Assembly (NCBI GenBank): GCA_023150875.1
Contig: JAKLKC010000022.1
Coordinates: 1-64,000, forward strand
Source: Myxococcota bacterium
GTDB taxonomy: Bacteria; Myxococcota_A; UBA796; UBA9615; JAKLKC01
Reading direction: 5' to 3'
DNA: 64,000 bases
In this document: positions 8,563 to 25,506 of the stretch, one piece after another
Layout: each line of letters begins with the position of its first letter
Position numbering within the stretch: the first letter of the stretch is position 1
Position numbers and translations under genes: made by a program
The notes under the pieces: generated by a model
The model's input: only the letters and a program-made list of their open reading frames with translations
What the model was told of the DNA's origin: nothing
Databases searched by the model: none

Positions 8563-10527
8563 ATGCGCATTCTCGCTGTACCGCTGCTCGCCGCCGCGCT
8601 CGGCGTGTCCCTCGGAGCGGGCTGCGGCCCCGATGCCCCAGGACCGTCCGCCCCCGGGGGGGCCGTCGACCTCAAGCAGGTCATGGCCCAGCGCGGCCTG
8701 ACCGACGCCGACGTGATCGCCGCCGCCAAGACCTACACCCCCACCGGCAAGCACGACGAGTACGTGATCCTCGCCTCCGGCGGGCACGGGGGGAACCTCG
8801 TGGCCATCGGCGTGCCCAGCATGCGGATCCTCAAGTACGTCGCGGTCTTCGGGCCCGAGCCCTGGCAGGGCTACGGCTACGGCGGCCTGGGGGACAAGCT
8901 GCTCTACGAGGACTCGAAGCAGGGGGGCAAGCAGATCACCTGGGGGGACGTCCACCACCCGAACCTCTCCGAGACCAACGGCGAGTACGACGGGGAGTTC
9001 ATCTTCGTCAACGACAAGGCCAACGCCCGGATCGCCGTGGTGGACCTCAAGGACTTCACCACCAAGCAGATCATCGCCAACCGCCTCGTGATGAGCGACC
9101 ACGGCGGCGCCTTCGTCACCCCGAACACCGAGTACGTCGTCGAGACCAGCCAGTACCCCGCTCCCCTCGGGGGCGCCTACGCCCCCCTCTCCGAGTACAA
9201 GGACAAGTACCGGGGGGCGGCGACCTTCTGGAAGTTCGACCGGAGCCGGGGGCGGATCGACGAGGCGGCCTCCTTCGCCATCGAGCTGCCCCCCTACTCC
9301 CAGGACCTCGCCGACGCCGGCAAGTTCGACTCCGACGGCTGGGTCTTCATCGGCTCGTGGAACACCGAGATGTCCGCCGGCACCGAGGGGAAGGACAAGC
9401 CGCCCATGGAGAGCGGCGCCAGCCAGAACGACATGGACTACCTCCACATCATCGACTGGAAGAAGGCCGAGCAGCTCGTCCAGGCCGGGAAGACCACGGA
9501 CATCAACGGCATGCGGGTCCTGCCCCTGGCGACCGCGGCGGCGGAGGGGGTCCTGACCTTCGTGGGGGAGCCCAAGAGCCCCCACGGCTGCGACGTCACC
9601 CCCGACGGCAAGGCCATCGTCGTCGGGGGCAAGCTCGACACCCACGCGACCGTGTTCGAGTTCGCGAAGGTCAAGGAGCTGATCGCCAAGAAGGACTTCG
9701 AGGGGCGCGACGCCTACGGGGTGCCCATCCTGAACTTCCAGAAGGCGCTCCGGGGCCAGCAGGAGATCGGGCTCGGTCCCCTGCACACCGTCTTCGACGA
9801 GAAGGGCAACGCCTACACCTCGGTGTTCCTCGACAGCACCGTGGTCAAGTGGAACTACAACCAGATCGGCCAGCCCACCGAGGCCCTGCCGGTCCACTAC
9901 AACATCGGCCACATCACCGCCGCCGAGGGGGACAGCGCCAGCCCCGACGGGCGCTACGTGGTGGCCATGAACAAGATGGCCCAGGACCGGCACCTGGGCG
10001 TCGGCCCCCTGCTGCCCCAGAACTTCCAGCTCATCGACATCACCGGGCCCAAGATGGAGCTCATCTACGACCTCCCCATCCCCCTGGGCGAGCCCCACTA
10101 CGCCCAGATGATCAAGGCGGACAAGCTCAAGACCATCCAGGTCTACACCCCCGCGGGCACCGATCCCTACACCGACGAGGTGTCGCCCCACGCGGTGGCC
10201 GCGGGTGGCGAGCGCATCGAGCGCAACGGCAACAAGGTCGACGTCTACATGAGCGTCATCCGCAGCCACTTCACCCCGGACACCATCGAGGTGAACCAGG
10301 GCGACCTCGTGACGTTCCACCTGACGAACCTGGAGCAGGCCTTCGACCAGACCCACGGCTTCGCCGTGGACATGTACAACCTCAACGTGTCCCTGGAGCC
10401 CGGGAAGTACGAGCGGGTGAGCTTCGTCGCGGACCGCCCCGGCGTGTTCCCCCTGTACTGCACCGAGTTCTGCTCCGCCCTCCACCTGGAGATGGCGGGC
10501 TACCTGCTGGTCAAGCCCCGGGCCTGA
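8563..10527 (+). CDS. nosZ: Nitrous oxide reductase, clade II type, apparently a lipoprotein
   Basis: 654 residues. It reduces N2O to N2 outside the cytoplasmic membrane. The CuA domain is complete: H598, C633, C637, H641 and M644 (motif CTEFCSALHLEM). CuZ-type histidines include H131, H132 (DVHHPNLSETNGEYDG) and H180 (SDHGGAF). The signal is MRILAVPLLAAALGVSLGAGC with no twin arginine, so export is by Sec, the clade II hallmark. A Cys at 21 preceded by GAG suggests lipid anchoring, although the lipobox is imperfect. AGGAG lies 5 bases before the ATG. It is the first gene of a rightward nos operon and diverges from padR. Confidence 0.95.
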   Translation: MRILAVPLLAAALGVSLGAGCGPDAPGPSAPGGAVDLKQVMAQRGLTDADVIAAAKTYTPTGKHDEYVILASGGHGGNLVAIGVPSMRILKYVAVFGPEPWQGYGYGGLGDKLLYEDSKQGGKQITWGDVHHPNLSETNGEYDGEFIFVNDKANARIAVVDLKDFTTKQIIANRLVMSDHGGAFVTPNTEYVVETSQYPAPLGGAYAPLSEYKDKYRGAATFWKFDRSRGRIDEAASFAIELPPYSQDLADAGKFDSDGWVFIGSWNTEMSAGTEGKDKPPMESGASQNDMDYLHIIDWKKAEQLVQAGKTTDINGMRVLPLATAAAEGVLTFVGEPKSPHGCDVTPDGKAIVVGGKLDTHATVFEFAKVKELIAKKDFEGRDAYGVPILNFQKALRGQQEIGLGPLHTVFDEKGNAYTSVFLDSTVVKWNYNQIGQPTEALPVHYNIGHITAAEGDSASPDGRYVVAMNKMAQDRHLGVGPLLPQNFQLIDITGPKMELIYDLPIPLGEPHYAQMIKADKLKTIQVYTPAGTDPYTDEVSPHAVAAGGERIERNGNKVDVYMSVIRSHFTPDTIEVNQGDLVTFHLTNLEQAFDQTHGFAVDMYNLNVSLEPGKYERVSFVADRPGVFPLYCTEFCSALHLEMAGYLLVKPRA

Positions 10528-16579: not shown

Positions 16580-16640
16580 AAGAACCTCGCTGCGAACCGT
16601 GGGCCGGCGGTCCCACCCCGGACCCAGGAGGAACGAGAGC

Positions 16641-18104
16641 ATGCCCTCGGGCCAGCACGGCCACCCCGACGCTCCCGCCAGGGAGGCGCGCCGCGAGGCG
16701 GGCCGCTGGCTCGCCCTGTCGGTCGGCAGCCTGGTGCTCGCGGGCGCCTTCGCCATCCTCCTGGTCATCGGGCGCACGCCGCCCCTGGACCGCCTCTTCT
16801 CCGACCCCCTGTTCTTCAAGCGCGGCCTCGTGGTCCACGTGGACCTGGCCCTGGTCGTCTGGTTCTACAGCTTCGTCGCGGCGATCACGTTCCTCGTGCC
16901 CTCCCGGCGCGCCCCCGGCCGGCTCGCCCGGGCGGGCGCCTCCATCGCCGCCGCGGGAGTGGTGGCGATGATGGCCGGGGCGGGGATGCGGGGGGCGGCC
17001 CCGGTGCTCGCCAACTACATCCCGGTGATCGACCACCCCGCCCACAACCTGGGCCTGCTGGCCTTCTTCCTGGGGGTCGCCCTCGCCGTCCTCGATCCCC
17101 GGCTCCTCCCCAGCCACGAGGCGCCCACCGGCTTCTTCGCCCTCCCTCCCGCCGCCCGGCCCCCCGCCCGGGCCGCGGCCCTGGCGCTGGTGCTGGCGCT
17201 GCTGGCGGGGGTGGGGGCGTTCCTGACCACCCCCCGGGGGCTGCCGGCCCAGGGCTACTACGAGCTGCTCTTCTGGGGCATGGGCCACGCCCTCCAGTTC
17301 GCCAGCGTCCTGGGGATGGTGGCGGTGTGGATGGTCCTGCTGGAGTCCGCCCTGGGGCGGGCCCCGGTGTCGCGGCGGGCCTCGGCGATCCTCTCGGGGC
17401 TGCTCCTGGCCCCGGTCTTCGCCGCCCCCTCCCTCACCCTGTCGGGGACCACCCGGGGCTTCGTCCACTCCGCCTTCACCACGATGATGCGCTGGGGGAT
17501 CTTCCCGGTGGTCTCGGTCTTCCTGGTCGCCGGAGTCCTGGCGGTGGTCCGGGCCCGGAGGGCGGGGGGGCTGCCCTCCGCCGGCCTCGCCGATCCCCGG
17601 ATCATGGGCTTCGCGGTCAGCGCGGCCCTCACGGCGCTGGGCTTCGGGCTCGGCGCGGCCATCCGCGGATCGAACACCATGATCCCCGCCCACTACCACG
17701 CCTCCATCGGCGCGGTGACGGCGGCGTTCATGGCGGTGGGGCTCGGGATCCTGGAGTCCCTCGGCCACGGGATCCCCACCCCGCGCCTGCGGCGCTGGGC
17801 GGGTTGGCAGCCGCTGGTCTTCGGCGGTGGCCAGATGGTGTTCGCCGCGGGCTTCGCCCTCGCGGGGAGCCACGGCATGGCCCGGAAGGTCTATGGCCAG
17901 GAGCAGGACGCCCGCTCCCTCGGCGAGATCGTCGGGCTCGGCACGATGGGCCTCGGCGGCCTCGTGGCCGCCGCCGGCGGGCTCCTCTTCCTCTACCTCG
18001 TCCTCTCGGCGTGGCGCCGTCCCGCGTCCGCGCCCTCGGCCCCCCAGAACTGGAGGCATCCATGGAACGACAGGGAGATCGCCCTCACCCGATCCAGAGG
18101 TTGA
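16641..18104 (+). CDS. Divergent heme-copper oxidase superfamily subunit I homologue
   Basis: 487 residues, about twelve transmembrane helices. A low-spin heme His is likely H66 (LVVHVDLALVVWF). HYH at 351-353 (IPAHYHASIGAV) matches the paired heme ligands of subunit I. The CuB region is incomplete: FWGMGHALQFA has H216 but no Pro or Tyr after it, and the usual His-His pair is reduced to FVHSAF (H276, S277). It may therefore bind hemes without a normal binuclear center. It precedes and overlaps the small gene of a B-family complex, so it may be an extra subunit, electron-transfer partner or assembly protein. AGGAGGA precedes the ATG. No oxidase activity is claimed. Confidence 0.7.
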   Translation: MPSGQHGHPDAPAREARREAGRWLALSVGSLVLAGAFAILLVIGRTPPLDRLFSDPLFFKRGLVVHVDLALVVWFYSFVAAITFLVPSRRAPGRLARAGASIAAAGVVAMMAGAGMRGAAPVLANYIPVIDHPAHNLGLLAFFLGVALAVLDPRLLPSHEAPTGFFALPPAARPPARAAALALVLALLAGVGAFLTTPRGLPAQGYYELLFWGMGHALQFASVLGMVAVWMVLLESALGRAPVSRRASAILSGLLLAPVFAAPSLTLSGTTRGFVHSAFTTMMRWGIFPVVSVFLVAGVLAVVRARRAGGLPSAGLADPRIMGFAVSAALTALGFGLGAAIRGSNTMIPAHYHASIGAVTAAFMAVGLGILESLGHGIPTPRLRRWAGWQPLVFGGGQMVFAAGFALAGSHGMARKVYGQEQDARSLGEIVGLGTMGLGGLVAAAGGLLFLYLVLSAWRRPASAPSAPQNWRHPWNDREIALTRSRG

Positions 18105-18227: not shown

Positions 18228-18752
18228 ATGAGCATCCATACTCCTCCGGCCGACTGGTTCAAGCCTCCGACGGGGGCCGAGCGCGCGTGGATCGGGCTCG
18301 CCCTGGTGTGGTGCCTGATCATGTCCATGGCCATGCCCTACTGGGCGGTGAAGGGGAAGCAGAACAGCAGCGGGGAGGCGTACCGGGTGGAGCCCGCCGA
18401 CTTCTCGGCGCGGGTGGACCGATTCGTCGCCGCCCACAAGGTGGGCGAGCTGGACGGGCAGCCCGTGGTGGAGCCCACCCCCGGCGGCGACGCCTACCTC
18501 CTGGGCCGCATGTGGGCCTGGTACCCGATCCTCAAGCTCCGGCAGGGGCAGACGTACCGCGTCCACCTCTCCGCCCTGGACCTGCAGCATGGCTTCTCGC
18601 TGCAGCCCATGAACATGAACTTCCAGGTACTCCCGGGCTACGACCACGTCCTGACGCTCACGCCGACCAGCACGGGAGAGTTCTCCATCATCTGCAACGA
18701 GTTCTGCGGGATCGGGCACCACCTGATGACCGGCAGGATCATCGTCGAGTAG
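18228..18752 (+). CDS. CuA-containing subunit II of a B-family heme-copper reductase
   Basis: 174 residues, close to the 168 of Thermus ba3 subunit II and much shorter than A-type subunits. There is one N-terminal helix (23-41), then a cupredoxin domain. CuA ligands are present: LQHGFSL supplies the His, and CNEFCGIGHHLM supplies two Cys, a His and a Met. It accepts electrons from a cytochrome c or cupredoxin and passes them to subunit I. GAGGAGG precedes the ATG; 8 bp separate it from subunit I. Confidence 0.88.
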   Translation: MSIHTPPADWFKPPTGAERAWIGLALVWCLIMSMAMPYWAVKGKQNSSGEAYRVEPADFSARVDRFVAAHKVGELDGQPVVEPTPGGDAYLLGRMWAWYPILKLRQGQTYRVHLSALDLQHGFSLQPMNMNFQVLPGYDHVLTLTPTSTGEFSIICNEFCGIGHHLMTGRIIVE

Positions 18753-18760
18753 GAGCGGCC

Positions 18761-20494
18761 ATGGCGAGCCACGACACGATCCCCTTGGGCGCCCCTCCGG
18801 TGGGACTGCGCGGCGCGGTGTCCGGGGCCCGGACCTGCGACACGACCGGGCTGCCCGTCTGCCTCACGGCGCAGAAGTTCATCCAGTTCAACGCGGTCTC
18901 GGCCGTGGTGTGCCTGCTGGTGGGTGGCATCGCCGCCCTCCTGCTGGCCCTCACCCGGTGGCCCGCGGTCCACCTCCTCCCCGCGCAGTGGTACTACCGG
19001 ATCCTGACCCTGCACGGCTTCAACATGCTGATCTTCTGGATCCTGTTCTTCGAGGTCGCGATCCTCTACTTCGTCAGCACCACCCTGCTCAACTCACGCC
19101 TCGCGTCCAAGGGTACGGCCTGGACCTCGTTCCTGATGATGGTCGCGGGCGCGGGCATGGTGGAGTGGACGACCCTCACCGGGCGCAGCGACGTGCTGCT
19201 GACGTCCTACACCCCCCTCCAGGCCCACCCCGTCTTCTACCTGGGCATCATCCTGGTCGCCGTGGGCACCCTCATCGGGGTGGGGAACTTCTTCGCCACC
19301 CTCTACATCGCGCGCCGGGACCGCACGTACTCGGGCTCGGTGCCCCTCGTGGTGTTCGGGGCCACGGCGGCGGCGATCATCGCCGTGGTGACCCTGCTCC
19401 ACGGCGCCATCGTGATGATCCCCACCTTCCTGTGGTCCCTCGGCCTCATGGGGGCTCCCGATCCGGCGTGGTACCGCCTGATCTGGTGGGGGCTCGGGCA
19501 CCAGTCCCAGCAGGTCAACGTCTGCGCGATGGTGTCGGTGTGGTACCTGCTGGGCACCATCACCACCGGGGCGAAGCCGGTGAACCAGGCGGTGTGCCGC
19601 GGCGCCTTCGTGCTCTACATCCTGTTCATCAACCTGGCCTCGGCGCACCACCTGCTGGTGGACCCCGCCATGGGCACGAGCTGGAAGATCTGGAACACGT
19701 CTTACGCCATGTACCTCGCCGTGCTGGCCTCGATGATCCACGGCTTCACCGTGCCGGCCTCCATCGAGGTGGCGCAGCGGGCCAAGGGCTACACGAAGGG
19801 GCTGTTCGGCTGGCTCGCGGCGGCGCCCTGGGGCAACCCGGGCTTCTCGGGCTTCTTCCTGTCCCTGCTGATCTTCGGCTTCATCGGCGGGATCACCGGC
19901 GTCACCCTCGGCACCCAGCAGATCAACATCATCGCCCACAACACGCTGCGGATCCCCGGACACTTCCACGCCACCGTGGTCGGTGGCACCACCCTGGCCT
20001 TCATGGCCCTGACCTACTACGTCGTGCCCCTGCTCTTCCAGCGGGACTTCCACGCCAAGGCCCTGGCCCGGGTGCAGCCCTACCTCTTCGCGGCGGGGAT
20101 CGTGACCATGTCCCTGGGCATGTCCTTCGCGGGCTCCTACGGCGTGCCCCGGCGCCACTGGGACATCGACTTCACGGGCGCCGCCTACACGCCGGGCTTC
20201 GACGCCGGCGCCCACCTGATGCTCGGGATCATGGGGGTCGGCGCCGTCCTGGCCTTCACCGGGCTGCTCCTGTACGTCCTGCTCACCGTGGCCGCGGTCT
20301 TCTTCGGGCCGCGCATCCAGGGCCGCGCCATGACGCCCTGGCACGTCGAGCGGGCCGCGGCGGCCCCCACCCACGCGGCGGACGAGCACCACATGCCCGG
20401 AACGACGGTGCTGGTGGGGATCCTCCTGCTGTCGTTCGTCATCTACTACTTCGCCAACTGGAAGGCCCTGGCCGACGTCTGGGGCGTGAGGTAG
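18761..20494 (+). CDS. B-family heme-copper subunit I lacking the active-site Tyr; probable NO reductase
   Basis: 577 residues, 13 or so helices. Metal ligands are intact: low-spin heme H85 (LTLHGFNML) and H403, high-spin heme H401, CuB H247, H296 and H297 (SAHHLLVDP). The region around ASIEVAQR, GLFGWLAAAPWGNP and IAHNTLRIPGHFHA aligns with Thermus ba3. The oxidase motif GHPxVY is replaced by GHQSQQ, so the cross-linked Tyr becomes Gln251. Loss of this Tyr is a mark of nitric oxide reductases in the superfamily, so 2 NO to N2O is the likely reaction. This would supply N2O to the adjacent nosZ. O2 reduction cannot be fully excluded. ATG start at 18761. Confidence 0.8.
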   Translation: MASHDTIPLGAPPVGLRGAVSGARTCDTTGLPVCLTAQKFIQFNAVSAVVCLLVGGIAALLLALTRWPAVHLLPAQWYYRILTLHGFNMLIFWILFFEVAILYFVSTTLLNSRLASKGTAWTSFLMMVAGAGMVEWTTLTGRSDVLLTSYTPLQAHPVFYLGIILVAVGTLIGVGNFFATLYIARRDRTYSGSVPLVVFGATAAAIIAVVTLLHGAIVMIPTFLWSLGLMGAPDPAWYRLIWWGLGHQSQQVNVCAMVSVWYLLGTITTGAKPVNQAVCRGAFVLYILFINLASAHHLLVDPAMGTSWKIWNTSYAMYLAVLASMIHGFTVPASIEVAQRAKGYTKGLFGWLAAAPWGNPGFSGFFLSLLIFGFIGGITGVTLGTQQINIIAHNTLRIPGHFHATVVGGTTLAFMALTYYVVPLLFQRDFHAKALARVQPYLFAAGIVTMSLGMSFAGSYGVPRRHWDIDFTGAAYTPGFDAGAHLMLGIMGVGAVLAFTGLLLYVLLTVAAVFFGPRIQGRAMTPWHVERAAAAPTHAADEHHMPGTTVLVGILLLSFVIYYFANWKALADVWGVR

Positions 20495-20499
20495 GCCCG

Positions 20500-21450
20500 A
20501 TGGAGCGCATGGTCCAGCGCCTCGAGGACTTCATGTCGGGAGCCCGGTTCGCCGTGTTCGCCCTGGCGATCCTGGTGGGGTTCAAGGCGATCCTCCTCCT
20601 GGCGCTGGTCACGCCCACCCCGACCGGGGACCTCGCCGGCTTCGCCGAGGACTTCAAGACGTGGTGCTTCGGCTACGATCCCGCCACGGGGCGGGTCCAG
20701 TGGGCGCACACGGCGACGATGCTGCTGGAGCCGGTGGTCCTGGGCGCCATCGTGATCGGGATCTGGCGGCAGCCCCTGCGGGAGGCCATGGCGGGTCGGC
20801 TGCGGGGCCATCGGTCGTGGGCGGTGGCCGGACTCACCGTCGCCGTCGGGGTGGTGGTGGGGCTCGGGGTCTACGTTTCCCGGGACGGCCGCCGGCCCCC
20901 CGGAGAGCTGCCCTTCCCCGCCGAGGCGCTGCGGACCTCCTTCACGGCGCCGGCTCTGGACCTGGTGGACCAGGACGGCCGCCGGGTCACCCTGGAGGGG
21001 CTCCGAGGGAAGGTGGTGGTCCTCACCGCCGTGTACTCCCACTGCGCGCAGACCTGCCCGCGGATCCTGACCGAGCTGCGGGAGGCGATGGCCGCGCTGC
21101 CCCCACCGCTGCGGGACGACGTCACCGTCGTGGGGATCAGCCTCGATCCCGAGCGGGACCGCCCGGAGGTCCTGGCGGACCTGGCCCGGGCGTACGGGGT
21201 CTCCTCCCCGGCGTGGCGCCTCGTCACCGGCGAGCCCGCGGCCGTGGAGGGGGTCCTGGACTCCCTGGAGTTCGCAAGGGTCCGGGACCCCGAGACTGGG
21301 GTCATCGATCACGCCAACCTCTTCGTGCTGGTGGATCGGGGGGGAAAGATCGCCTACCGCCTCGCCCTCGGCGAGAGTCAGCAGCGGTGGCTCGTGTCCG
21401 CGCTCGGAGTCCTCCTCTCCGAGCGCGCCGTCGCCTCGGCCCGACCCTGA
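20500..21450 (+). CDS. SCO1/SenC copper chaperone with an N-terminal three-helix membrane domain
   Basis: 316 residues. Helices at about 15-38, 70-90 and 107-127 are followed by a thioredoxin-fold SCO domain (150-310). The copper site is C182-x3-C186 (HCAQTCP) with H271 (VIDHANLF). SCO proteins load the CuA site of subunit II or keep its cysteines reduced. The extra membrane domain of ~130 residues is larger than the usual single anchor. It starts 5 bp after the subunit I gene and is clearly part of that operon. Confidence 0.88.
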   Translation: MERMVQRLEDFMSGARFAVFALAILVGFKAILLLALVTPTPTGDLAGFAEDFKTWCFGYDPATGRVQWAHTATMLLEPVVLGAIVIGIWRQPLREAMAGRLRGHRSWAVAGLTVAVGVVVGLGVYVSRDGRRPPGELPFPAEALRTSFTAPALDLVDQDGRRVTLEGLRGKVVVLTAVYSHCAQTCPRILTELREAMAALPPPLRDDVTVVGISLDPERDRPEVLADLARAYGVSSPAWRLVTGEPAAVEGVLDSLEFARVRDPETGVIDHANLFVLVDRGGKIAYRLALGESQQRWLVSALGVLLSERAVASARP

Positions 21451-21479: not shown

Positions 21480-23636
21480 ATGTCTTCGCCCCCACTCCCC
21501 CGGCGTGCCTCCTCCCACGCCGGCTCCTCCTCGCTCCCCATCTTCGTCGCCGACGCCAGCCCCGAGCCCCGGGTGCTGGGGGAGCCCCTGCTCCGGGCCG
21601 TGGACTCGGGGTTCCTCCACCTGGAGCGATGGCTGCGGGTCCTGGTCCCCGACCGCTGGAACCCCATCGCCCAGGCGGGCGCCATCGCCAACGTCGCCTT
21701 CATCGTGGCCTCGGCCACGGGGGTGCTGCTCCTGGTCTGGTACGTGCCCAGCGTGAACCAGGCGTGGAGCTCGGTGGAGGCGATGGGGAAGGCGCCGCTC
21801 ACGGCGGGGCTGGTGCGGTCCCTCCATCGCTACTCCTCCGACGGGTGCATGCTCTTCGTGCTGGTGCACGCGCTCCGCCTGTTCGCCGCGCGGCGCTTCG
21901 GTGGGGCGCGCTGGCTGGCCTGGGTCACGGGGATCAGCCTCGTGGGGCTCCTGTGGTTCGTGGGGTGGCTCGGGTACTGGCTGGTGTGGGACGAGAGGGC
22001 CCACCAGGTGGCGGTGGCGACGGCGCGGCCCCTGGACCTGGTGCCGATCTTCGCCGAGCCCCTCTCCCGCTCCTTCCTCATCGACGAGGCGGTCAACTCC
22101 CTGCTGTTCTTCGTGGTGTTCTTCCTCCACATGCTGATCCCCCTGGCCATGGGGGTGGCCCTGTGGCTCCACATCACCCGCCTGAACCGCCCGCGGTTCC
22201 TGACGGACCGCCCCATGACCGCCTGGGTGGTGGGGTCGATGGTGGTGCTGTCCCTGGCGTACCCGGCCACCAGCGCTCCCCCCGCGCGGATGCTGCAGCC
22301 GCCCACGGACCTCGCCGGGGACGGGTGGTTCCTGCTCCCCCTGACCCTGGCGGAGCGACTCTCGGGGGGCGCCATCTGGGCGGCGACGCTGGTGGGGGGC
22401 CTGGTGCTCTTCTCGGTGCCCTGGTGGATGGCCCGCCGGCGGGCGGCGGTGGTGGAGGTCGACACCGCCCGGTGCAACGCCTGTCGGGCCTGCGTCGTGG
22501 ACTGCCCCTACGGGGCGATCACCATGGTGCCCCGGAAGGACGGGAGGGCCTTCCCCCTGGAGCCCCAGGTGGACCCGTCCCGCTGCGTGGGCTGCGGGAT
22601 CTGCGTGGGGGCGTGCGGACCGGGGGGGATCGGCCTGCCCGAGGTCCCCGTCCGGGACGCCCGGCGCCACGTGGAGGGATGGATCGGCCAGGCGGCGGAG
22701 GAGGGCGAGGAGGTGTCCCTGGCGGTGCTGTGCGCCGGCGCGGCCGGCGGCGGGCTCCGGGTCGATCCCGCCAGCGGCCGGTGCGGCGAGCTGCCGGGCT
22801 ACCGCGTGCTGGCGGTGCCCTGCGCGGGGTGGCTGCCCCCCACGCTGGTGGAGCGGGCGCTGCGGCGGGGGGCGGCGGGGGTGCTGGTGGTGTCCTGCCC
22901 CCCGGCGAGCGGAGCCTACCGTGAGGGCCACGCCTCCACGGCCCAGCGCCTGGCGGGGGAGGGCGCCGCCGAGTCCCTCCCCGCCTCCATCGATCCGGCG
23001 AGGGTGAGGCAGGTGGCGCTGGACCGCACCCGCCGGGGGGAGCTGATCCGGGTCGCCCGGGAGTTCCGGGAAGAGGGGGTGCGCCGCGCGGAGGCCGCCG
23101 GGCCGCCGCCCGGGGTCCCGGCGCCGGGGCGCGGCGCGGGGATCCGGGCCCGGGTGGCGGTCGGGGCGGCGGCGATCTCGCTGGTCTCGGGGGCCCTGGT
23201 CGCCGCCGGGAGCGAGGTCCCGCTGCCGCTGCCCGGCTCGCCGGGGCCGGAGCTGGTGGTCTCGTTCGAGCTGCCGGGGCAGGTCGCCGAGGACTGCCGG
23301 GAGCCCGACGCCGCCGAGAGCGCCGCCCGGCCGGTGCACATGCGGCAGGCGAAGATCTGCGAGCGGGCCCGGGTGCCCGTGCGCCTCCGGGTGACGGTCG
23401 ACGGCCGGGTCGTCCTCGAACGGTCCTACCCTCCCCGGGGGATCTGGGGGGACGGGAACAGCCTGGCGCTGGAGCACCTCCCGGTGGAGCCGGGGACCCG
23501 CCGCGTCGAGGTGGCCATCGGCGCCTCGCCGGACGGCGCCACCTGGGACCACGTCGAGGAGCGGATCCTGGAGTTCGGCGAGGAGGGGCGGCGCGTGGCC
23601 CTCTTCGAGAAGGGGCACGGCTTCGGTTGGCACTGA
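21480..23636 (+). CDS. Cytochrome b / di-[4Fe-4S] / MvhD-like fusion protein
   Basis: 718 residues. Residues 60-260 are a cytochrome b N-terminal domain with H116, H130, H217 and H231, both pairs 14 apart as in bc1/b6f, so two b hemes. Residues 330-382 hold two ferredoxin motifs, C332/335/338/342 and C369/372/375/379. Residues 413-533 resemble the small iron-sulfur subunit MvhD/FlpD (AVLCAG, AVPCAGW, VSCPP; C418, C435, C448, C473). A helix (556-578) leads to a ~130-residue soluble domain with C606 and C627. It should link a quinone pool or cytosolic iron-sulfur donor to the NO/N2O reductases. No Rieske gene is nearby. ATG at 21480, 29 bp after the SCO gene. Confidence 0.85.
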   Translation: MSSPPLPRRASSHAGSSSLPIFVADASPEPRVLGEPLLRAVDSGFLHLERWLRVLVPDRWNPIAQAGAIANVAFIVASATGVLLLVWYVPSVNQAWSSVEAMGKAPLTAGLVRSLHRYSSDGCMLFVLVHALRLFAARRFGGARWLAWVTGISLVGLLWFVGWLGYWLVWDERAHQVAVATARPLDLVPIFAEPLSRSFLIDEAVNSLLFFVVFFLHMLIPLAMGVALWLHITRLNRPRFLTDRPMTAWVVGSMVVLSLAYPATSAPPARMLQPPTDLAGDGWFLLPLTLAERLSGGAIWAATLVGGLVLFSVPWWMARRRAAVVEVDTARCNACRACVVDCPYGAITMVPRKDGRAFPLEPQVDPSRCVGCGICVGACGPGGIGLPEVPVRDARRHVEGWIGQAAEEGEEVSLAVLCAGAAGGGLRVDPASGRCGELPGYRVLAVPCAGWLPPTLVERALRRGAAGVLVVSCPPASGAYREGHASTAQRLAGEGAAESLPASIDPARVRQVALDRTRRGELIRVAREFREEGVRRAEAAGPPPGVPAPGRGAGIRARVAVGAAAISLVSGALVAAGSEVPLPLPGSPGPELVVSFELPGQVAEDCREPDAAESAARPVHMRQAKICERARVPVRLRVTVDGRVVLERSYPPRGIWGDGNSLALEHLPVEPGTRRVEVAIGASPDGATWDHVEERILEFGEEGRRVALFEKGHGFGWH

Positions 23637-23664: not shown

Positions 23665-24705
23665 CTAGCCCCGGACCAGCCCGTCCACCACGAACGCGAA
23701 GAGCAGCAGGGCGAGGTAGCGTCCCGAGGCGAGGAAGACCCTTCGGTCGGCGCCCGGATCCGGGTCGCCCACGGCGCGGGCAGTCACGGCGAGGAACCAC
23801 GCGCCCAGGGCCGCGGCCAGGGCGCCGGTGGGGACCGAGACGACGCCCACCGCCGCCGGCAGGGCCCCCGCGGGCAGCAGCAGGGCGGCGTAGGCGACCA
23901 TCCGGCGCCGGGTCGCCGCCACGCCGGACCTCAGAGGGAGCACGGGGATGCCCGCCCGCTCGTACTCCTCGCAACGCCGGAGGGCGATGGCCCAGAAGTG
24001 TGGCATCTGCCACAGGAACACGATCCCGAACAGGGTGGCCCCCGCCAGGGAGAGGCGCCCATCGACGGCGGCGTCGGCGATGAGGGGCGCTGCGGCGCCG
24101 GGCACGGCGCCGACCTCCGTGGCGAGGGGCGTGCGGGGCTTGAGCCACGCGGTGTAGACGCCCAGGTACGTGGAGAAGGTGGCCGCGGCCAGCGTCACGG
24201 CGAGGGCTCCCCCCGACGCCGCGAGGACGGCCCCCGAGGCCAGGGCGGTGGCCACGCCGAAGGCGAGGGCCTGGCGGGGGCGCAGCGCGCCGGTGACCAG
24301 GGGGCGGCGGCGGGTCCGCTCCATCCGGGCGTCCCGGTCGCGCTCCAGCAGGGCGTTGAGGGCGCTGCACGCCGCGGCGACCCCCCCCGTCCCCGCCAGG
24401 ATCGCCGCACCTCGGGCCAGGGAAGGCCCCCCCGCGGGGTCCAGCACCAGGGCGGGCAGGGCGGAGAGGGTCACCAGGACCAGCACGCCCGGCCGGGTGA
24501 GGGCGAGGTAGGAGCGCCACCGCGGAGGGGCGAGGGCGCGGCGCGGGGGGTCGGATCGGTCCTCCCCGGGGGGGAGGGGCGCCGTCCCGGGGGAGCCGGC
24601 CGCGGCGGGGCGCGCACGGGGATGGACCGGCGGCGCCACCGGATCGGCGGTCGCGGGGCCGGGCGGCTCCGCCCGGGGCGGCTCCGGGGCCGGCGATCCG
24701 CCCAC
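23665..24705 (-). CDS. ctaB: Protoheme IX farnesyltransferase (heme O synthase)
   Basis: 346 residues of the UbiA family. The prenyl-diphosphate site is ALNALLERDRDARMERTRRR, and YTAWLKPRTPLATEVGAVPG is the heme O synthase signature, along with LWQMPHFWAIAL. It makes heme O for heme-copper reductases and is convergent with the cytochrome b fusion gene, 28 bp apart. The chosen GTG at 24705 begins two bases after the Rrf2 stop. The first ~80 residues are a Pro/Ala-rich tail not normal for the family, so the true start may be internal. Heme O or A use fits the B-family complex next door. Confidence 0.88.
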   Translation of the reverse strand: MGGSPAPEPPRAEPPGPATADPVAPPVHPRARPAAAGSPGTAPLPPGEDRSDPPRRALAPPRWRSYLALTRPGVLVLVTLSALPALVLDPAGGPSLARGAAILAGTGGVAAACSALNALLERDRDARMERTRRRPLVTGALRPRQALAFGVATALASGAVLAASGGALAVTLAAATFSTYLGVYTAWLKPRTPLATEVGAVPGAAAPLIADAAVDGRLSLAGATLFGIVFLWQMPHFWAIALRRCEEYERAGIPVLPLRSGVAATRRRMVAYAALLLPAGALPAAVGVVSVPTGALAAALGAWFLAVTARAVGDPDPGADRRVFLASGRYLALLLFAFVVDGLVRG

Positions 24706-24706
24706 G

Positions 24707-25168
24707 TCAGCCCCGCCCCGTGCGGGCGAGGGCCGGGACCGCCACGGAGGTCGTGCGGGCGACGGCACCCACGGTGACGGTCTGGAGGAGCTCGGCGAGG
24801 GGCGCGGACGCGCTCGCCCAGCGGTCGTGCAGCGCGCACGGGCACCGCTCGTCGCAGATCCGGTCCCCCATGACGCAGGGCCGGGCCGTGGCCGGCGCGT
24901 CCCCGAGGGCGTCCAGCACCTCGCCCAGGAAGATGTGCTCGGGGTCCCGGGCGAGCTCGTACCCCCCGCCGTGCCCCTTCAGTCCGCTGACGATCCCCGC
25001 CCGCGCGAGTTGCCCCAAGACCTTCGAGAGGAACGATGGGGGCACCGACGTCCGCTCCGCGAGGCTCTGGGTGCTCTCCTTGGTCCCGGGGGGCAGCCGG
25101 GCGAGGGCGATCACCGCCGCCAGGGCGTACCGGGAGGTCAGGGGAAGGCCGGGGCTCAGAGGTGTCAT
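24707..25168 (-). CDS. Rrf2-family regulator with a cysteine cluster (NsrR/IscR-like)
   Basis: 153 residues. LTSRYALAAVIALA, SVPPSFLSKVLGQLARAGIV and GLKGHGGGYELARDP form the Rrf2 winged helix and its GGY wing. C98-x6-C105-x3-C109-x1-C111 follows, a likely [Fe-S] site, though the spacing differs from the C-x5-C-x5-C common in NsrR. Members of this family sense NO or iron-sulfur status, so it is a natural regulator for this NO/N2O cluster. ATG at 25168; longer frames upstream are arginine-rich shadow. It appears to be transcribed with ctaB. Confidence 0.85.
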   Translation of the reverse strand: MTPLSPGLPLTSRYALAAVIALARLPPGTKESTQSLAERTSVPPSFLSKVLGQLARAGIVSGLKGHGGGYELARDPEHIFLGEVLDALGDAPATARPCVMGDRICDERCPCALHDRWASASAPLAELLQTVTVGAVARTTSVAVPALARTGRG

Positions 25169-25506
25169 GGGGACCTTCACCGCGACACGCCCGCCGGGCC
25201 TCGGGTCCGGAAGGCAGCCGCGTCCAGCCGGGGATCTCCTCCGGCGCGTCCCCCCGCGACCCGCTCGTGGACGCGAGGGCCGCCAAAGCATAGAGCCCCT
25301 CGGCGCCAAGGGGGAGCCTTGGTGGGCGCCGGACCCGGGGGGCGCCCGCGTGCCTCCCCCGCTCCATCGACCCGAGAACCGACCGATACGTAGGGCACGG
25401 GCCCCATCGGGCGCAATGATACCCCTTGCGGGTTTAACTCAGTGGATGTTATTGGGTCCTGAGTCGCTGGGTCCCCCGCGTCGCGGGCCTGACGGAGGTC
25501 GTTCTC
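25169..25506. other. Divergent intergenic region between Rrf2 and thioredoxin genes
   Basis: 338 bp, no gene supported. The left 200 bp is GC-rich. The right part (25415-25460) is comparatively AT-rich and holds the promoter motif annotated separately. No other clear dyad was found. Confidence 0.5.
25426..25453 (+). promoter_or_regulatory. Promoter of the thioredoxin/HzsA-like operon with ACTCAGTGGAT element
   Basis: TTGCGG (25426-25431), a 16-bp spacer whose last 11 bases are ACTCAGTGGAT (25437-25447), then GTTATT (25448-25453). The start codon is 54 bases downstream. The same 11-mer abuts the -10 of the leftward gene at 35407, also about 52 bases from its start. Confidence 0.6.

Follow-up and report, generated by a model that had tools for sequence, protein, structure and literature searches.

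The open reading frame at positions 21480..23636 (+ strand) of the 64,000-nucleotide stretch of DNA that was analysed (referred to as the window) encodes a protein of 718 aa, which we refer to as CBFM, in which a cytochrome b is followed by two [4Fe-4S] clusters, an MvhD/FlpD-like domain, a transmembrane helix and a periplasmic domain, as indicated by domain searches, a structural model and an alignment of 66 sequences. The gene for this fusion is found almost constantly together with that for subunit I of an eNOR-type nitric oxide (NO) reductase, and we consider the chances to be about even that the protein is a transmembrane electron-transfer partner linking the quinone pool or eNOR with a low-potential partner in the cytoplasm.

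The fusion, which is present in a single copy in its own genome, is encoded by one uninterrupted frame of 718 codons extending from the ATG at 21480 to the stop codon at 23636 (+), and its GC3 is 0.93–1.00 throughout, with no break at the domain borders. Pfam searches matched Cytochrome_B to residues 58-235 (E 6e-16), a Fer4-type dicluster to residues 331-379 and FlpD to residues 439-532 (E 1.6e-10), with no match within the last ~180 residues. Among the NCBIfam matches listed no model was above its cut-off, and one of those below it, for HdrA2, covers residues 323-510, viz. the ferredoxin and MvhD regions in their HdrA2 order. The AlphaFold model of the protein has a mean pLDDT of 92.1 and a pTM of 0.89. 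Cytochrome b, ferredoxin and FlpD are combined in 66/66 aligned relatives from many phyla, and His116, His130, His217 and His231, the eight ferredoxin Cys, Cys418, Cys448 and Cys473, and D281 are invariant in this alignment. The single frame, the Pfam matches and the model thus bear out the earlier note, in which one polypeptide with all of these parts had been described. The alternative that separate genes were joined by an assembly or sequencing artefact has a negligible likelihood: it is refuted by the independent occurrence of the same fusion in many genomes across phyla, the uniform GC3 and the high-confidence model, and no points in its favour were found.

The N-terminal part of the protein consists of a b6-like four-helix di-heme core (residues 30-235; 21567..22184, +), identified by Pfam PF00033 and by alignment to cytochrome b6, followed by subunit-IV-like helices E and F with an ef loop (22185..22445, +), identified by a profile match. 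Residues 56-236 align with cytochrome b6 and all four heme-ligand His match; the alignment of the b domain with cytochrome b extends over about 290 columns. When residues 236-322 were used as a profile (A4), subunit IV of the b6f complex was matched with an E value of 1e-4, its PEWY motif lying opposite xDwF. In all 66 fusion relatives, D281 (22320-22322) occupies the place of the Glu of PEWY, the family motif being xDW[FY]. In view of the alignment to b6 and the profile match to subunit IV, the family corresponds, as judged from its sequences, to a b6 that is followed by helices E and F of subunit IV and bears an xDW[FY] motif. It shares with b6 plus subunit IV of b6f, and with the cytochrome b of bc1, the di-heme core with bis-His ligands and the PEWY-like motif in the ef loop; it differs from both in that PEWY is replaced by xDW[FY], the core is followed by helices E-F only, the heme c_i Cys is absent (the Cys of b6 lies opposite a non-Cys), Rieske and cytochrome c1/f are lacking, and a C-terminal Fe-S/MvhD part is added. 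Of the bc1-type di-heme b proposed earlier, the di-heme nature stands and the second His pair indeed has the shorter, bc1-type spacing, whereas the sequence is closest to b6 and not to bc1. The suggestion that this cytochrome b is quinone-reactive is consistent with its Qo-type acidic motif, and a transfer of electrons between the b part of the fusion and quinone is plausible.

The two-cluster ferredoxin domain (22443..22637, +), which contains CxxCxxCxxxC twice, was assigned based upon Pfam and its invariant Cys residues. Lys/Arg are abundant and acidic residues scarce in the loops B-C and D-E and at the end of helix F, in contrast to the loops A-B, C-D and E-F. This charge pattern corresponds to the usual topology of cytochrome b and, by the positive-inside rule, it places the ferredoxin and MvhD domains in the cytoplasm, where this part of the protein may plausibly exchange electrons with a partner. 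The MvhD/FlpD-like domain (22716..23084, +) was identified by Pfam PF02662, which is matched by 66/66 members, and by phmmer to MvhD 5odc_D. Cys418, Cys448 and Cys473 are conserved in it, and the fourth canonical Cys (478) is lost; this residue is found near 478-480 in 49/66 members, Cys435 could stand in for it in the present protein, and 7/66 members have neither it nor a nearby substitute. A ferredoxin followed by MvhD is also found in HdrA2 (type Ia HdrA), the fusion matching positions 570-745 of the HdrA2 profile, and an HdrA-MvhD fusion has been described (PMC12054007). The present fusion differs in its joining to a cytochrome b and in lacking the FAD/thioredoxin-reductase-like bifurcating domain, for which (HdrA) no Pfam match was obtained. 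Because of the absence of a FAD domain from the fusion, and with no flavin domain belonging to the cluster, flavin-based confurcation is not supported, and in this sense neither is the term confurcating, used in the earlier note.

The C-terminal part of the protein consists of a seventh transmembrane helix (residues 553-578; 23136..23213, +), seen in the AlphaFold model, and a predicted periplasmic Ig-like beta-sandwich (23247..23633, +), which was modelled with high confidence (pLDDT 96). Cys606 and Cys627 covary in the 66 sequences (both present in 33, neither in 32 and a single one in 1), which fits a periplasmic disulfide and hence a periplasmic location of this domain. In the alpha- and gammaproteobacterial loci (22), a gene of ~520 aa is accompanied by a separate gene for the transmembrane segment and beta-domain. 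A PDB fold search with the C-terminal domain gave only weak Ig/CBM-like matches, none of them at E <= 0.001, and no named family was found for it. FixG_C and FixH were excluded as its identity, as neither matched any of the 66 C-terminal domains; the fusion also gave no FixG family match. The residues His-Met 620/621 (23337-23342), a possible metal-binding pair, are near-invariant (57/66 and 62/66, respectively).

The genes surrounding the fusion recur in the order NORlikeA, subunit II, subunit I, SCO, fusion and CtaB, with local variants. In the window, these are a CuB-less heme-copper subunit I paralogue (NORlikeA; 16599..18104, +, likely ATG at 16641); a CuA subunit II (18228..18752, +), with H121, C156, C160, H164 and M167 all conserved; a heme-copper subunit I (18761..20494, +); a SCO1/SenC copper chaperone (20527..21450, +); and CtaB heme O synthase (23665..24768, −), next to which is a gene for an Rrf2-family regulator (24707..25309, −) with sub-cut-off NsrR/IscR matches. 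By alignment and a ba3 (B-family) match, subunit I has Gln251 (HxxQQ) in place of the active-site Tyr, and Gln is found at this position in 60/60 relatives. In a published residue table, this position is Q in eNOR, N in sNOR and D in gNOR (PMC8756737). Because of this Gln, and with its B-family similarity, subunit I is by sequence of the eNOR type and not sNOR or gNOR, sNOR being ruled out by its Asn. Alphaproteobacterial members of the Tyr-less B group have been named ba3-a1 (PMC6431628), and for the ba3-a1/eNOR group NO reductase activity with electrons from reduced cytochrome c is reported (PMC8879329). Within the literature searched, the fusion is not a described subunit of eNOR, and it is regarded here as the product of an adjoining gene. 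We also noted that residue 40 of subunit II (18345-18347) is Ala in the window and His in 58/60 relatives, and that a membrane segment of ~130 residues precedes the SCO domain at the N-terminus of its protein. The NORlikeA paralogue is found in 49 loci, where it often adjoins the fusion; its family keeps the heme His and the first CuB His, the CuB His-His pair being lost (mostly Leu/Ala), and it has no PDB relative by sequence. As stated in the earlier note, there is no Rieske protein: none is encoded in the conserved cluster across the fetched loci, in whose 3,652 ORFs a single Rieske-like ORF was found outside the cluster. No conserved CxxCH gene that could represent cytochrome c1/f is present in the cluster.

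To examine the distribution of the fusion, genomes were scanned with its patterns using one genome per species, which yielded 229 encoding places, 80 of which were fetched. By their record titles, the fetched loci are from the Myxococcota, Verrucomicrobiota, Balneolales/Rhodothermales, Nitrospirota, Nitrospinota and Proteobacteria, among others. Of the loci with >3.5 kb upstream (58), 57 contained eNOR subunit I, the exception (L006) having a partial match only. Among 237 genomes of the phylum, subunit I was detected in the source genome and 28 others; the fusion was found in 28/28 of the latter versus 1/80 genomes without subunit I taken in listing order (Fisher p 5e-25, relatedness ignored), and in this single genome the match lies 840 bases from a contig edge. 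Subunit I was also present in 34/42 genomes of distant fusion loci. The pairwise divergences of the fusion and subunit I are correlated (r 0.85), to which shared descent also contributes. The proposed linkage to a Tyr-less subunit I is thus strongly upheld. For the linkage to nosZ, which had been proposed as well, the outcome is mixed. NosZ was present in 16/23 eNOR genomes of the phylum versus 5/27 others (p 0.0005), which is a statistical co-occurrence, but it seldom adjoins the fusion and is absent from 7/7 sampled genomes of the Nitrospirota/Nitrospinota type. The role in N2O reduction suggested earlier is weakened by these observations, and NosZ linkage was rejected as the main association. 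In the window, a clade II (Sec-dependent) NosZ (8563..10527, +) is noted for context only.

The genome of origin also contains NirK, two nosZ (the second one, of clade II, at G000:C147:30530-32329) and an operon of the ACIII (alternative complex III) type with a pentaheme cytochrome. A bc1-type C-terminal cytochrome b was not found in this genome nor in 20/23 members of the phylum; the proteobacterial hosts of the fusion do have bc1 cytochrome b. As eNOR reportedly takes electrons from cytochrome c and the genome has ACIII, the delivery of quinol electrons to NO would not by itself require the fusion. An ordinary bc1-like quinol:cytochrome c oxidoreductase that has lost its Rieske protein would account for the homology to b6 and subunit IV, the Qo-type motif and the lack of a bc1 cytochrome b in this genome, but it is largely refuted by the missing Rieske, cytochrome c1/f and heme c_i Cys; further, ACIII is present here, the proteobacterial hosts already possess bc1 and the MvhD module would be left unexplained. 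We therefore consider it highly improbable. The retention of the gene with eNOR whatever the complex III points to an eNOR-specific role, either as a redox partner or as a maturation reductase.

As a redox partner, the fusion would be a conserved associate of the eNOR-type NO reductase in the form of a di-heme cytochrome b that reacts with quinone, has no Rieske partner and bears on its cytoplasmic side a ferredoxin plus MvhD module as at the C-terminus of HdrA2-type proteins, and electrons would cross the membrane through it between the quinone pool or eNOR and the low-potential partner. We infer that the protein is redox-active and touches eNOR. Against this reading, eNOR is reported to work with reduced cytochrome c and ACIII is available in this genome, the cluster has no Rieske or c-type cytochrome to accept a high-potential electron, and an MvhD Cys is missing here and lacks a substitute in some members, as noted above. 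A candidate partner is found in 12 loci of the Nitrospirota/Nitrospinota type (L044-L047, L049-L054, L056 and L057), where a NuoF-like gene (Complex1_51K, SLBB, NADH_4Fe-4S) lies beside the fusion, usually between two tandem copies of it, with a rhodanese gene nearby on the other strand. In this clade, the partner would be an NADH-oxidising NuoF-like protein, and partners of the NADH type may serve the fusion outside it too. The low-potential partner envisaged in the earlier note thus gains a candidate, but one confined to a single clade, the gene not being found in the window. If electrons passed from NADH or ferredoxin through the Fe-S clusters and heme b to quinone or eNOR, the fusion could serve fast NO removal with dissipation of energy. 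The FMN/NADH domains of the NuoF-like neighbour fit this proposal, as do the genes for Rrf2 regulators, hemerythrin and Crp/Fnr-type proteins in the vicinity of several loci, which are suggestive of NO stress; however, complex I would be bypassed and energy wasted, and outside one clade there is no such neighbour. We regard it as possible, at clearly less than an even chance, and since NADH-driven input is one directional version of the electron-transfer reading, the likelihoods of the two overlap.

The linkage by itself also fits maturation, as the cluster holds assembly genes (SCO and CtaB). Here, the fusion would supply the periplasmic side with electrons of cytoplasmic origin, reducing Cu(II) or aiding the assembly of the metal sites of eNOR, as CcoG/FixG does for cbb3 oxidase. 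Its retention whether the chain has ACIII or bc1 is as expected for such a role, and the periplasmic His-Met pair would be in keeping with it. To our knowledge, no di-heme cytochrome b or MvhD domain has been described in CcoG. This cupric reductase similarly has two [4Fe-4S] clusters, a C-terminal Ig-like periplasmic domain and an oxidase cluster (PMC7558416), but the fusion differs from it in carrying di-heme b and MvhD and in its want of any FixG_C or FixH match, and the quinone-site acid and the NuoF neighbour would be superfluous for copper reduction. Because of the latter two features, a redox partner is favoured, and maturation appears rather doubtful. A Rieske-less quinone-based bifurcating or confurcating device in a single polypeptide, in which quinol at the periplasmic site would donate one electron to eNOR while the second would reach NAD(P)+ or ferredoxin via the b hemes, [4Fe-4S] clusters and MvhD, is unlikely; the CuB-less subunit I paralogue may be its missing high-potential arm. 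Since Rieske, cytochrome c and FAD are lacking, the encoded parts do not make up a complete system for bifurcation of either the classical quinone-based or the flavin-based kind.

A published precedent is provided by the Rieske/cytochrome b complexes of anammox, viz. Kuste4569-4573 and Kustd1480-1485, which resemble the fusion in combining a cytochrome b with Fe-S on the cytoplasmic side; the link to NAD(P) proposed for them, through cytoplasmic oxidoreductases (PMC12954380), may have a counterpart in the NuoF-like neighbour of one clade. These complexes contain Rieske and multiheme cytochromes and have their NAD(P) subunits as separate proteins, whereas the fusion is a single polypeptide tied to eNOR. 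A Chloroflexi ORF (RME88945.1), for which domains of cytochrome b6, DMSOR-beta-like Fe-S and FlpD are tabulated with no comment on function (PMC8756737, Table A3), differs in having an additional C1 cytochrome c homologue. No described family with the architecture of the fusion was found in the libraries and literature searched, which cover part of the eNOR literature; the gene cluster may already be drawn in published eNOR work, and its newness is uncertain.

The fusion can serve as a clean marker of eNOR in genomes. This NO reductase, whose recognition is recent, is widely distributed and hence a source of N2O. A partner kept with this enzyme across phyla, with any complex III, must matter for its powering or building, and the near-constant company of the two in the genomes sampled suggests that the conversion of NO to N2O by many bacteria involves an electron link or assembly step yet to be characterised. 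If bifurcation took place, NO reduction would drive the formation of low-potential reductant. If the NADH link is true, NO respiration would be coupled directly to the cytoplasmic low-potential pool via a Rieske-less cytochrome b, which would have consequences for the entry or exit of electrons in such chains of the Nitrospirota and Nitrospinota.
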